Positions 57,952 through 63,063 are shown, counted from the first letter of the stretch. The stretch is DNA of 64,000 nucleotides from Bacillota bacterium (GCA_029960955.1 JASBVS010000028.1:62001-126000); one strand, 5' to 3'. Numbers and translations are program-made. Notes: a model not told the origin generated them from the sequence alone.

Positions 57952-58502
57952 GCGACCCCGCCTCCGCACGGGTCCCCGTGCCGCCGGTGCTGGCGCCGGG
58001 GCTTCGGCTGCTGGTGGTGGGCTACAACCCGGGCAGGCGGAGCGGCGCCACCGGCCACCACTTCGCCGGGCCGGGCAACCGCTTCTGGCGGATGCTGGCG
58101 GAGTCGGGCTGGACGCCCCTCGAGCTCCGGCCGGAGCAGGACCGGGAGCTGCCGCGGTACGGGATCGGCATCGTCAACCTGGTCGACCGGGTGACGCCCG
58201 GCTCGGCCGACCTGGCCTGGGCGGAGATGCTCGAAGGGGGCCGGCGGGTCCGGGAGCAGGCCGAGCGCTGGCACCCGCGGCGCCTCGCCTGCCTGGGCAA
58301 GGACGTGGCGCGCGCCGTCCTCGGCCTGCCGCGCTCCGCCCGCCTCGACTGGTCGGTGGAGGCCGGTCAGCTGGAGTGCTCCTGGGGTCGCCTCCCCGTC
58401 GCCTGCCTGCCCAACCCCTCGGCCCGCAGCACCGTCCCGCCCGCCTTCCAGCTGGCGCTCTGGAGCGCGCTGGCCGCCGCCTCCCGAGGGGTCGCCAGGT
58501 AA
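57948..58502 (+). CDS. mug: G/U mismatch-specific DNA glycosylase (Mug/TDG)
   Basis: The 184-residue product has the Mug motif VVGYNPGRRSGATGHHFAGP with catalytic Asn in GYNPG, then NRFWRML, and the closing motif CLPNPSARS. It removes uracil or thymine from mismatches with G, useful in GC-rich DNA. It overlaps the GH gene by 4 bp (GTGA). Its last 136 bp overlap the convergent ferric reductase-like gene. Confidence 0.88.
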   Translation: MSDPASARVPVPPVLAPGLRLLVVGYNPGRRSGATGHHFAGPGNRFWRMLAESGWTPLELRPEQDRELPRYGIGIVNLVDRVTPGSADLAWAEMLEGGRRVREQAERWHPRRLACLGKDVARAVLGLPRSARLDWSVEAGQLECSWGRLPVACLPNPSARSTVPPAFQLALWSALAAASRGVAR

Positions 58503-59173
58503 CGCGTCGCCGCGAGGGCGAGGAGCAGGCCGCCGCTGACCGCGTAGAAGAGACGGAAGGCCGGGGTGTCGCTTCCTGCCAGGACGCCGTGGAACCAGGC
58601 CAGCGCCCAGGCGACGGCGGCCAGGCGGTGGAGGGGCAGCCAGAGCCGGCGGGCGACCTGCGGGTTCCAGCGCCGCGCCATCCTCGGGCCCAGCCCCGCG
58701 CTCGCCGCCGCCACCAGCGCCAGGTAGGCGCCCAGCACGCCGGCGGCCACCGGGCCGCTCCGGTAGCCGGAGGCGCCCGGCAGGACCGCGCCGCGCCAGC
58801 CCACCTGGACGAAGGGGTCGAGGGCGAGCGCGGTCGCGTGGGCCGCCACCAGCACCAGGGCGGCCACGGAGAGGACCGTGTGCGTCCGGTAGAGGAAGTC
58901 CGCCGAGGGCCGGCGCCGCCCCAGGCGCCAGGGGTGGGAGAGCCAGATCCCCACCATCACCGCCAGCTCCAGCAGCAGGTAGGCCGTCATCCCCGCCGCC
59001 CGCGCCACGATCCAGGGGAACATGCGGCTTCCGACCAGCGGCGCGGCCAGCGTCGCCAGGAGGTAGCCCAGCAGCCAGCCCGCCGTCAGCAGGAGCAGGA
59101 GAGCCCCCAGCGAGACGCCCTGCCGCTCTTCCGCGACGATTTCGGGAGCCGCCCGCAGATGGCGACCGCTCAT
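58367..59173 (-). CDS. Ferric reductase-like di-heme membrane protein
   Basis: The 268-residue product has six or seven membrane helices and a ferric-reductase-like domain. Two bis-His pairs fit two b-hemes as in NOX/FRE proteins: H-x13-H in HTVLSVAALVLVAAH, and H-x12-H in HRLAAVAWALAWFH. No cytosolic FAD/NADPH domain is present, so electrons must come from the quinone pool or a partner. ATG 59173 overlaps the apbE stop as ATGA. Its gene ends 136 bp inside mug on the other strand. It is unlikely to be MsrQ, since no msrP is adjacent. Confidence 0.8.
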   Translation of the reverse strand: MSGRHLRAAPEIVAEERQGVSLGALLLLLTAGWLLGYLLATLAAPLVGSRMFPWIVARAAGMTAYLLLELAVMVGIWLSHPWRLGRRRPSADFLYRTHTVLSVAALVLVAAHATALALDPFVQVGWRGAVLPGASGYRSGPVAAGVLGAYLALVAAASAGLGPRMARRWNPQVARRLWLPLHRLAAVAWALAWFHGVLAGSDTPAFRLFYAVSGGLLLALAATRYLATPREAAASALQSASWKAGGTVLRAEGLGRQATGRRPQEHSS

Positions 59174-60102
59174 GCCACCACCCTCCACATGAGGAAGGCT
59201 TCGAGCCCGGAGCTCCAGCCGAGCTCCCCTTCCTCCGTCACCCAGAGCGCGGCGAGCCGCTCGCGCTCCGCCAGCGTCGCGATCGCCGGCTCCCCCTCGA
59301 CGAAGAGCGCCTTCGACCAGACCTCGCACCAGGCGGGATCGGCGCCGACGACGGTCACGGCCAGGAGGCCGGAGTCGGCGGGCTCGCCGGTGCGCGGATC
59401 GATCAGGTGATGGACCGGCTCCTGCCCGGCCAGCCAGCGGCGGCGGCGGATGGAGGAGGTGCAGACCGCCCGGTCCCGGACGGCGAGGACAGCCACCGGC
59501 TGCTCGCCGCCCCGGGGGTCCTCCACGCCCACGTGCCAGCCGTCGCCCTGCGGCCCGCCTCCGCGGCAGTAGAGGTCGCCGCCGGCGTTGACCAGGAAGT
59601 TGGCGCTGGCCCTCGCCATCTCCCGGGCTGCCAGGCGGACCGCGTACCCCTTGCCGATGCCGCCCAGGTCGAGCGGCGCCCCCAGGAGCCGCAGCTGCCG
59701 CCGGCGCGGTCGCCGCCCGAGCCAGGGCGCGCGGCCGCTGGCGCGGGGCCTGCCGCGGGCGGCCGGGAGCCGGAGGGGCCCCCGCTCCAGGGGCAGCGTC
59801 CGGTCGTAGCCGATGCGCACCAGCGCCTCCAGCACGCGGGGGTCGAAGCGCCCCCCGGTGCGCCGCCAGGCGCGCCGGGCCAGGGCGACGACGTCGTAGA
59901 GCAGCGGCTCAACGGCCTGCCATGCGCCCCGGTTGGCGTTGAAGCGCATCAGCGGCGAGTCGGGGCGGAAGCGGGTGCAGACCCGCTCCACCTCGGCGAA
60001 GCGTTCCAGCGCCCGCGCCGCCGCCTGCTCGACGCCCGGCGAGGCGTCGAGGTCGCGGATCAGGATCTCGGTGGCCATGGCCTGACCGTGCCATTCGCTC
60101 AA
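59170..60102 (-). CDS. apbE: FAD:protein FMN transferase ApbE
   Basis: The 310-residue enzyme transfers FMN from FAD to Ser/Thr of exported proteins. Seen: FAEVERVCTRFRPDSPL, LGGIGKGYAVRLAAREM, NAGGDLYCRGG, IDPRTGEP, and VWSKALFV, where most ApbE have aDAlaTAlF, a variant I cannot place for certain. No clear signal peptide is visible. TTG 60102 has AAGGAAG at 8 bp. It lies 14 bp downstream of a small protein ending in TTTGAS and overlaps the ferric reductase gene. Its likely targets are the two small proteins. Confidence 0.88.
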   Translation of the reverse strand: MSEWHGQAMATEILIRDLDASPGVEQAAARALERFAEVERVCTRFRPDSPLMRFNANRGAWQAVEPLLYDVVALARRAWRRTGGRFDPRVLEALVRIGYDRTLPLERGPLRLPAARGRPRASGRAPWLGRRPRRRQLRLLGAPLDLGGIGKGYAVRLAAREMARASANFLVNAGGDLYCRGGGPQGDGWHVGVEDPRGGEQPVAVLAVRDRAVCTSSIRRRRWLAGQEPVHHLIDPRTGEPADSGLLAVTVVGADPAWCEVWSKALFVEGEPAIATLAERERLAALWVTEEGELGWSSGLEAFLMWRVVA

Positions 60103-60116
60103 GGGCGTCGCTTCCT

Positions 60117-60497
60117 TCAGCTCGCGCCGGTCGTCGTCTGGACCTGGGGCATGGCCATGGGCGGCAGGCTGGGCGGCGCGGCGGGCGGAGGAAGGGCGGC
60201 CGCCTGGCCCGCCACCTGCTCGACCTTCTGGCTCAACCGGTCCACCTGCGACTGCGCGGCGCGGATGCGGGCGTCCAGCTCCCGGGACTGCTCGAGGAGC
60301 TTCCGGGTCTGGGGCGGCAGCGCCGCCTGGACCGTCCTGCTCCGCGCGGCGGCGGGACGGGCCGGCTGGGGCGTGTGGCTGCCCGCCCAGGCGACCGCGC
60401 CGCCGAAGAGGGTGAGGGAGGCGGCCACCCAGCCGGCGGTCAGGCGCGCCAGCCGCTTTCGCCTCAGCTCCAGCGTTCTGCGCCCGTCAGGCCTCAC
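60117..60497 (-). CDS. Small anchored protein ending in an ApbE-type TTTGAS motif
   Basis: The 126-residue product (129 from GTG 60506) has a basic N-terminus and one membrane/signal helix (about residues 18-39). A helical, coiled-coil-like stretch follows (PPQTRKLLEQSRELDARIRA...VDRLSQKVEQVAG), then a Pro/Met-rich linker. The last six residues are TTTGAS, close to the ApbE target D-x-x-(S/T)-G-A-(S/T), with Ser as final residue and no Asp. GTG 60497 overlaps the preceding stop as GTGA. No FMN_bind domain is visible. Not a family I recognise. Confidence 0.62.
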   Translation of the reverse strand: MRPDGRRTLELRRKRLARLTAGWVAASLTLFGGAVAWAGSHTPQPARPAAARSRTVQAALPPQTRKLLEQSRELDARIRAAQSQVDRLSQKVEQVAGQAAALPPPAAPPSLPPMAMPQVQTTTGAS

Positions 60498-61012
60498 TGG
60501 CCCCACCCCTCGGAGCCCTCGTCGCCTTCGCCCGAACCGAAGAGCCAGAAGCCGCCGTCGCCCTGGTGCTCGCGCCCCTCGTGGCTCCCCCGGCTGGAGG
60601 AAGCGCCGGTGACGGTGTCGACGCTCGGCGCCTGCGTCTGGGCCTGCGTCTGTTGCTGCAGCTGCTGCTGTTGCTGAAGCTGCAGCGCCTGGAGCTGGGC
60701 CAGGCGCGACTTGGCGGCGGCCACCGCGGCCAGCTCCTGCTGCAGCTGCTGCTGGGCGGCGGCCAGCGCCTGCTCCAGCTGCTGCTCCCGCTGGTTGAGC
60801 GAGGCTACGGAGCGCTCCTCAGCCGTCACCTGCTGGGCCAGCTGGCTCTGCACCGCCGCCAGCTGGCTGGTCGAGAGGGCGGGCGAGGGCGAGGAAGAGA
60901 GGCTCGGCGCCGCCTGGACCACCCCCGGCGCCTGCCGGAGCGCGGCGGCGCCGCCTGCCACGAAGGCGCCCGCGGCGCCCAGCACCGCAAGCGTCCGTCC
61001 CACACGTGCCAT
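60494..61012 (-). CDS. Exported Gln/Ala-rich coiled-coil protein with DTVTGAS flavinylation motif
   Basis: The 172-residue product has an N-terminal signal/anchor helix (about residues 7-26). A long Gln/Ala/Leu-rich coiled coil follows (about 48-124), then DTVTGASSS at residues 132-140 (codons 60619-60593) and an acidic Gly-rich tail with two Trp. DTVTGAS fits the ApbE flavinylation consensus D-x-x-(S/T)-G-A-(S/T), with S138 as the FMN-accepting residue. ATG 61012 has GAGGAG 10 bp upstream. It is first in the operon with the second small protein, apbE and the ferric reductase gene. Confidence 0.65.
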   Translation of the reverse strand: MARVGRTLAVLGAAGAFVAGGAAALRQAPGVVQAAPSLSSSPSPALSTSQLAAVQSQLAQQVTAEERSVASLNQREQQLEQALAAAQQQLQQELAAVAAAKSRLAQLQALQLQQQQQLQQQTQAQTQAPSVDTVTGASSSRGSHEGREHQGDGGFWLFGSGEGDEGSEGWGQ

Positions 61013-61419: not shown

Positions 61420-63063
61420 TTGTTCCCTCATCCGCGCAGGCCAGGCCTCTACCGGCTCCTGGCGGTGCTGGCCTTGGCCGCCGTGCTGGCCTCCGGGTTG
61501 CCGGCGGGCCTCGCTTCCGCCCAGTCGCCCACACAGTTCACCGACATCCGGGGTCACTGGGCCGAGCCGTTCATCCTGGCCGCCCAGGCGGCCGGGGTGA
61601 TCACGGTGCCCGACGACGGGAGGTTCCGCCCGGACGATCCCACGACCCGCCTCGACTTCGCCGTCTGGATGGCGCGGGCGCTGGAGCTGCAGCCGGTCAC
61701 CCCCGCCAAGCCGCCCTTCACCGACTGGAACAGCGTGCCCTCCGAGGACCGGGGCCTGGTGGCCGCAGCGGTCCAGGCGGGCGTGCTCAAGGGGTACCCG
61801 AACGGCACCTTCCAGCCCAACCGCACGCTCAACAGGGCGGAGATGGGCGTCATCTTCGGACGCGCCCTGGAGAAGCTGGGCGTCACGCCGGAGTCCCGCT
61901 ACTTCTACGAGTTCGGCGACCACGACGCCATCCCGGGCTGGGCCGCCGAGGCCAGCGCGGCGGTCAAGGAAGGCATCATCCTCGGCCGCCCCTCGCAGCC
62001 GGGCCAGCTGGCGCTCTACGCGCCCTTCGCCACGACGACGCGCGCGGAGACGGTCACCATGCTGGTCCGCTTCATGAACGTCCGCTTCCAGCTGCTGGGC
62101 ATCCAGCCGGCGCCCAAGCCGGCGCCGCAGCCGGCGGGAACGATCGTGACCGGCTGGGCGACCGCCCAGGACCTCGCCTCGTTGAACCTGGGCGCCGACC
62201 GGATCAGCTGGGTGATCGCCTCGGGCTATACGGTCGACAGCTCGACCGGCGGGGCCGGGGCACTGGTGGGCGCCGACAGCCCGGCGCTCTTCCAGTGGGC
62301 GCGGGACCACCAGAAGCCGCTCCTGGTGCGGGTCAGCCTGATGGGCGGCCCGGCCATCCACACGGTGCTCGCCAATCCCCAGACGCAGGCCCGCCTCGTG
62401 CAGAACATCATGACCGTGGTCGGCCACGGCTACGGCGGCGTCAACCTCGACTTCGAGTACCTGCAGAACGCGGACCGGGACCTTTTCACCCAGTTCGCCA
62501 CGGCCCTGGCCCAGCAGCTGCACGCCCAGAACCTGCTCCTGACCATCGACCTGCCCTGGCGCGACCAGGCGAGCGCCAACAGCTGGGGACACGACTTCGA
62601 CTTCGCCGCCCTCGGCCGCGTAGCCGACTACCTGATCATCATGACCTACGATCAGCACTACGCGACCAGCGGCCCGGGACCCGTCGGATCGATCCCCTGG
62701 ATGCAACAGGGTCTCGGCTGGGCGGTCTCGCAGGCGCCCGCCCAGAAGATCCTCCTGGGCATCCCCGCCTACGCCTACGACTGGGCCAAGGGCGAGCCGA
62801 CGCGCGCCTGGTATATTGAAGGGGCGCTCAACCTGATCGCCCGCTACCACGCCCAGCCCATCGTCCACACGGACCTGGGCGAGACGCAGTTCTTCTACAC
62901 GGACAGCCAGGGCGTCCGTCACGAGGTCTGGTTCACCGACACCTCCGGCCTGGCGGCGAAGCTCGCCCTGGTGCAGCAGTTCCACCTGGCCGGCGCGGCG
63001 ATCTGGAAGTTCGGCTACGAGACGCCGGACTGGTGGGGCGTGATCCGCCAAGCGCTGCCCTGA
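61420..63063 (+). CDS. Exported SLH-domain protein with GH18 catalytic domain
   Basis: The 547-residue product has a signal peptide (residues 1-34, ending LASAQ) and three SLH repeats: FTDIRGHWAEPFI (about 40-90), FTDWNSVP...YPNGTFQPNRTLNRAEM (about 100-150), and a weaker third to about 220. A GH18 TIM barrel follows, with GVNLDFEYL (catalytic Glu about residue 346), LIIMTYDQHY and IWKFGYETPDWW. It resembles spore or wall GlcNAc hydrolases of the YaaH/SleL type. SLH domains bind pyruvylated wall polymer, made with csaB. TTG 61420 follows GGGGAGGT at 7 bp. Confidence 0.9.
   Translation: MFPHPRRPGLYRLLAVLALAAVLASGLPAGLASAQSPTQFTDIRGHWAEPFILAAQAAGVITVPDDGRFRPDDPTTRLDFAVWMARALELQPVTPAKPPFTDWNSVPSEDRGLVAAAVQAGVLKGYPNGTFQPNRTLNRAEMGVIFGRALEKLGVTPESRYFYEFGDHDAIPGWAAEASAAVKEGIILGRPSQPGQLALYAPFATTTRAETVTMLVRFMNVRFQLLGIQPAPKPAPQPAGTIVTGWATAQDLASLNLGADRISWVIASGYTVDSSTGGAGALVGADSPALFQWARDHQKPLLVRVSLMGGPAIHTVLANPQTQARLVQNIMTVVGHGYGGVNLDFEYLQNADRDLFTQFATALAQQLHAQNLLLTIDLPWRDQASANSWGHDFDFAALGRVADYLIIMTYDQHYATSGPGPVGSIPWMQQGLGWAVSQAPAQKILLGIPAYAYDWAKGEPTRAWYIEGALNLIARYHAQPIVHTDLGETQFFYTDSQGVRHEVWFTDTSGLAAKLALVQQFHLAGAAIWKFGYETPDWWGVIRQALP

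Follow-up and report, generated by a model that had tools for sequence, protein, structure and literature searches.

A candidate minimal flavin electron-transfer operon with ApbE-type motifs on disordered protein tails

In many bacteria, proteins flavinylated by ApbE carry electrons outside the cell; surveys find such systems by FMN_bind domains and export signals (PMC8238504). Which protein serves an ApbE that has neither an export signal nor an FMN_bind partner? This question is raised by a four-gene operon in a stretch of 64,000 nucleotides from a Bacillota bacterium (GCA_029960955.1 JASBVS010000028.1:62001-126000), the whole of which is called the window below. The operon encodes two small proteins (sp1 and sp2), an ApbE and a membrane protein resembling ferric reductases (FRD). 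The arrangement is real, conserved and outside the known substrate classes tested. The best reading is that sp1 and sp2 form a new class of ApbE substrate, with the flavin attached to a disordered tail, and work with an FRD/MsrQ-like di-haem protein.

The operon and its tail proteins

On the minus strand, from position 61012 to 58367, four packed open reading frames (ORFs) follow each other in the order sp1, sp2, ApbE and a six-helix membrane protein, as a first-pass annotation of the window had described. The genes and the candidate sites of flavin mononucleotide (FMN) attachment are as follows (aa, amino acids; TM, transmembrane):

60494..61012, minus strand: sp1, 172 aa, a small protein with an N-terminal anchor (or signal peptide), a heptad-rich helix, and a tail with DTVTGAS and an acidic/Gly-rich end
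60117..60506, minus strand: sp2, 129 aa, with a TM anchor that has a basic N-side, a heptad helix at 65-104, a disordered Pro/Ala linker and the terminal QTTTGAS
59170..60102, minus strand: ApbE (FAD:protein FMN transferase family, Pfam PF02424), without export signal
58367..59173, minus strand: six-TM di-haem FRD/MsrQ-like membrane protein, 268 aa, assigned by alignment, AlphaFold2 model, fold search and the PF01794 match of a relative (L014)
60599..60619, minus strand: DTVTGAS of sp1 (sequence motif, residues 132-138), candidate flavinylation site Ser138
60120..60140, minus strand: QTTTGAS, the exact C-terminus of sp2 (motif conserved across related loci), candidate site Ser129

The anchors, heptad helices and motifs of both small proteins were seen, in agreement with the earlier description of two anchored coiled-coil proteins with ApbE-type motifs. 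That both end with or near such a motif needs some qualification. The sp2 motif is exactly terminal but has only the core [ST]GA[ST], and the sp1 motif, a full D-x-x-[ST]-G-A-[ST], is followed by a 34-residue acidic/Gly-rich end. Domain-profile searches of both proteins gave no match to FMN_bind (PF04205), as the annotation had also reported, and searches against Pfam, NCBIfam and PHROGs returned nothing above cut-off, with weak coiled-coil noise only. A structure model of sp2, of low overall confidence as expected, consists of an anchor helix, a loose stretch, the helix of heptad character and a disordered tail that bears the motif. The basic flanks before the anchor in most members indicate that the N-terminus lies inside and the C-terminus outside, and AxA-like sites in several members and the acidic sp1 tails point to the same topology. 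The linkers are often rich in Pro and Ala, and their length differs among loci. Most likely, sp2 stays tethered by its N-terminal helix, while sp1 may be cleaved.

The window genome (2.26 Mb, 93% complete) encodes a single ApbE. No FMN_bind, NqrB/RnfD or DUF2271 protein was found in this genome, in which DUF3570, Flavodoxin_4 and FMN_red were not searched. Among gene-like frames of the whole genome, D-x-x-[ST]-G-A-[ST] occurs in three only: sp1, a beta-helix-like repeat protein and a doubtful ORF rich in Ser and Arg. With one ApbE, no other tested target family and a motif nearly confined to sp1, the two small proteins are the best candidates for the ApbE target. FMN_bind is likewise missing from 18 of the 36 genomes that have the system, and seven of these 18 have only an ApbE of the tail-linked clade described below, with no NqrB/RnfD or DUF2271. 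A seeded profile detected no FMN_bind gene beside the tail operons.

Conservation of the tail motif

A scan of genome contigs with ApbE yielded 80 loci. Forty-two loci are of the related kind, a set that includes the window and class-level genomes and was chosen partly by the motif. In 33 of these 42 apbE loci, spanning Actinomycetota, Bacillota and Chloroflexi, sp2 has a strict [ST]GA[ST] in its last 12 residues, and the remaining nine have the near variants TKAS, TRAS, THAS, TSAS, TGGS or TGSS. Loss of the motif in close homologues had been named beforehand as one result that would refute the proposal. The proposal passes on this point: two congener genomes (loci L083/L084) keep the motif in both proteins, with DTFTGAS and DTTTGAS in sp1 and terminal QTMTGAS and QTTTGAS in sp2.

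Because the 42-locus set had been selected partly by motif, a prospective test was made on seven loci from unused Acidimicrobiaceae genomes, picked solely by ApbE similarity (at least 41% identity). In each of the seven, an ORF upstream ends in the motif. The background of C-terminal [ST]GA[ST] in unrelated ORFs of the same loci is 1/281 for gene-like ORFs and 33/3687 for all frames (0.4-0.9%), and the lone gene-like match, in L007, may itself be part of a related system. A simple estimate puts the chance of seven out of seven at about 7e-11. Low-complexity Ala/Thr/Ser tails of high-GC genomes could often spell TGAS by accident, and the genomes are GC-rich with tails rich in Ala, Thr, Ser and Gly. 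However, the background rate and the held-out loci contradict a chance origin, which we consider extremely improbable, considering also that the motif is kept over three phyla, including Sulfobacillus acidophilus at 57% GC.

The limits of the family were also explored. In Streptomyces-type, Nocardia-type and other distant loci (L042, L062, L043, L077), the position upstream of apbE is occupied by small acidic-ended proteins or by none, with no TGAS motif. Streptomyces-type loci were therefore rejected as members, the motif being absent. Extension to Actinomycetota at large was ruled out, as just five of 397 sampled genomes have an ApbE at E <= 1e-45.

The ApbE enzyme and the predicted haem protein

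The window ApbE matches PF02424 at 3.2e-54, and its relatives in the PDB include 3pnd and 2o18. Two of its sites are of particular interest:

59407..59412, minus strand: H231-H232, by comparison the counterpart of the catalytic His in characterised ApbEs; Ser216 is retained as well
59311..59325, minus strand: E260-V-W-S-K264, a variant of the canonical Mg-site D..T, common to the tail-linked clade

A quick tree of 102 ApbEs, with SH-aLRT support only, placed 35 of the 36 tail-linked ApbEs in one 53-row clade, in which the catalytic Ser and His are almost invariant. Thirteen clade members have no motif protein nearby; in several of these the contig stops short, and in L037 a motif protein does occur, about 2.2 kb upstream. 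The Asp and Thr of the Mg site, a region that binds Mg in FmnB and Escherichia coli Ftp (PMC8906456, PMC4767422), are replaced by Glu260 and Lys264 in the window enzyme and alike in the clade members with the region intact. The FMN_bind-linked ApbEs of the same set have Asp and Thr at these positions, and the Glu/Lys type is also found outside the clade. A substrate lysine is essential in NqrC (PMC4767422). Near the tail motif such a lysine is mostly absent, and it is our speculation that ApbE Lys264 stands in for it.

No checkable clade member has an N-terminal hydrophobic segment, and neither a signal peptide nor a lipobox is visible in the window ApbE. The enzyme is therefore probably cytosolic, judging from its sequence, and a cytosolic ApbE has a precedent in Klebsiella. 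Flavinylation outside the cytosol, in the sense of the 'extracytosolic' of the first-pass annotation, is not supported by this result.

The membrane protein carries the predicted ligands of two haems:

58838..58882, minus strand: first haem-ligand pair, H98 and H112, 14 residues apart (alignment)
58589..58630, minus strand: second haem-ligand pair, H182 and H195, 13 residues apart (alignment)

These four His are invariant in 33 aligned sequences and recur in an 87-sequence profile; W54, R58, D119, P132, W178, G200 and D202 are also invariant in the 33 sequences. Two bis-His pairs in TM helices are the pattern of the FRD superfamily. An AlphaFold2 model (mean pLDDT, the predicted local distance difference test score, of 83) has six long helices, and its nearest PDB folds are cytochrome b561, NOX5 and STEAP1 (E 0.05-0.2, probability near 1). 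A sequence search against the PDB found nothing, and the window protein has no Pfam match of its own; its neighbourhood relative L014 matches Ferric_reduct (PF01794) at 5.4e-9. The four His, six TM helices and predicted NOX/STEAP/b561-like fold support the earlier assignment as a di-haem ferric-reductase-like protein. The window FRD lacks a NAD-binding domain, unlike that of the Nocardia-type locus L062. An FRD gene adjoins in nearly all loci.

Proposed mechanism, alternatives and wider setting

We think it probable, though well short of certain, that the operon represents a minimal flavin electron-transfer module, in which a cytosolic ApbE flavinylates disordered tails and the exported tails shuttle electrons from the FRD haem. 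The signal-less ApbE would move FMN from flavin adenine dinucleotide (FAD) to the Ser of [ST]GA[ST] on the C-terminal tails of sp1 and sp2. The modification would probably take place in the cytosol, where FAD is available, ahead of Sec transfer of the tail. That flavinylation precedes export is probable because the ApbE appears to be cytosolic and the tails are unfolded, and an unfolded substrate would suit this order. Outside, the tails would be tethered by the N-terminal helix, and the FRD protein, fed by quinol or another inner-side donor, would pass electrons from its outer haem to their FMN, which would hand them on to an acceptor outside the cell, for example Fe(III). The genes and their linkage, the conservation of the motif, the ApbE clade, the lack of the other substrate families tested and the haem-ligand pattern are observed; the FMN attachment, the order of modification and export, the outside location of the tail, the direction of electron flow, the donor and the acceptor are what we infer. 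The 'wires' of the first-pass annotation are too strong a term; a flexible tail with a single motif in each protein fits a tethered shuttle better than a conduit.

Several observations weigh against this mechanism. The sp2 motif QTTTGAS lacks the canonical Asp, sp1 has no motif in several loci, and the motif Gly of sp2 is swapped in some relatives (TKAS, TRAS, THAS, TSAS). The small acidic-tailed proteins of more distant ApbE/FRD operons have no such motif; either it arose later, as a derived state, or a different site is used there. Given the altered Mg-site residues, the activity of the clade ApbE is not assured. Most characterised extracytosolic substrates, moreover, are modified by exported ApbEs.

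Some of the same observations would suit other explanations. The flavinylated tails might be cofactor arms, each FMN docking in a pocket of the FRD or of the other small protein and serving there as a fixed redox centre within a single complex. Almost every locus has two tail proteins per FRD gene, the FRD has conserved non-haem residues (for example P132, Y137-R138 and D202), and docking of tethered flavins has been proposed for Nqr/Rnf-like systems (PMC11334425). The often Pro/Ala-rich linkers of variable length argue against a fixed position, and we regard such arms as unlikely, if the least unlikely of the alternatives. Another possibility is that the [ST]xA[ST] tail has nothing to do with FMN and serves as a signal for sorting, processing or docking, and that the ApbE-like protein has some other role. 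The replacement of Gly by Lys, Arg, His or Ser in some lineages while T..A-S stays, the Mg-site changes and the motif-less related operons are consistent with this. However, the window sp1 and L021 have the exact D-x-x-[ST]-G-A-S, the motif tracks the ApbE clade, the catalytic residues of the clade are almost invariant, and seven genomes offer the clade ApbE no other tested substrate family; a signal of this kind thus seems quite improbable. The tails could also remain cytosolic, with the module working in the inward direction, for instance taking electrons from a donor outside and passing them by way of haem to an acceptor in the cytosol. The lack of an ApbE export signal across the clade would fit, and some hosts (Sulfobacillus) oxidise iron (PMC3558970). 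Considering that the basic N-terminal flanks, AxA-like sites and acidic sp1 tails indicate an outside C-terminus, we give an inward route slightly less weight still.

Among described systems, the shuttle module most resembles the MsrQ-like flavinylated systems, mostly of Actinobacteria, in which apbE lies beside a six-TM di-haem PF01794-type protein (Meheust et al. 2021, PMC8238504). Those clusters typically contain an FMN_bind protein, where the present operon has two tail proteins; their FRD often has a NAD-binding domain, whereas here it is bare; and the survey required export signals, which this ApbE lacks. The operon is therefore a variant of the MsrQ-like systems and not a plain member, because two defining features, an FMN_bind substrate and exported machinery, fail. 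The DUF2271, DUF3570, Flavodoxin_4 and FMN_red substrates (PMC8238504, PMC11334425) also lack FMN_bind, lie beside apbE and carry an ApbE-type motif. However, all four have a folded domain, which in two cases is related to flavin-binding proteins, whereas sp1 and sp2 consist of anchor, helix and tail only. The first-pass annotation had set a motif on a coiled coil or flexible tail against known targets that present it in a folded domain, but such a placement has precedents: the sites of Lactococcus FMN_red lie on an unstructured C-terminal extension (PMC8238504, PMC11334425), and a seven-residue motif suffices for ApbE, best at protein ends (PMC12052999). Changing Asp to Ala has a minor effect only, and Ser is accepted with reduced yield (PMC12052999). 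Engineered flavin tags are laboratory constructs with a short D-x-x-[ST]-G-A-[ST] peptide at the protein end, of which the present tails are an apparent natural counterpart. The FmnB/PplA pair of Listeria also provides a Gram-positive flavin route to extracellular acceptors. PplA has an FMN_bind domain and FmnB is an exported protein; neither feature was found here. No description of the present arrangement was found in the open-access literature.

A system with neither an FMN_bind domain nor an export signal would probably be missed by surveys built on them. If the proposed reading holds, the operon would be one answer to the 'orphan apbE' genomes left in 2021 (PMC8238504) and a natural use of a terminal flavin tag without a folded flavin pocket. 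S. acidophilus DSM 10332 (L099) has the operon, with HTVTGAS in both small proteins and no FMN_bind in the genome. Sulfobacillus reduces Fe(III) by a mechanism described as unknown in a review and a genome study (PMC4378227, PMC8790237), and the operon is a specific candidate for the direct route by which this cultured acidophile reduces Fe(III). Fe(III) is only one possible acceptor, because the hosts are not all acidophiles. In a more specific proposal, 'flavinylate first, export afterwards', a cytosolic ApbE subfamily with Lys at the former Mg-site Thr would modify disordered tails that are then Sec-threaded, and these tails, as tethered flavin shuttles, would themselves reduce Fe(III) directly in Sulfobacillus and related acidophiles; we hold this to be doubtful.

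A second kind of tail protein, four-TM or small, has the same terminal motif (G047-G050, G100; L007:6210-6812; L112-L116, L118, L119). Its conserved C-terminal region reads ...GCKLVEIGPANAGYTAAQMC.LPKG.HLRRGYMLVRGSVKP.VH.SSGASG. The L007 copy is next to two secreted proteins that have no clear Pfam match, at a distance of 3.8 kb from a clade ApbE that has no FRD neighbour.

The gene junctions given earlier were mostly reproduced: ApbE and FRD overlap by ATGA, and 14 nt separate sp2 from ApbE. The GTGA overlap of sp1 and sp2 also exists, but the alternative GTG start of sp2 nine bases upstream (60506), which gives a 13-nt overlap, is more likely because the proteins of both congeners start there. 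A promoter and terminator scan found none. The 3' end of the FRD gene overlaps a convergent uracil-DNA glycosylase gene (57978-58502, Pfam UDG 7e-20) by 136 bp (58367-58502), and the divergent neighbour (61420-63063) encodes an S-layer-homology protein with a glycosyl hydrolase 18 domain. In the related loci L003, L013, L017 and L022, response-regulator- or histidine-kinase-like ORFs lie a short way upstream of the operon, a hint that a signal from outside may regulate it.

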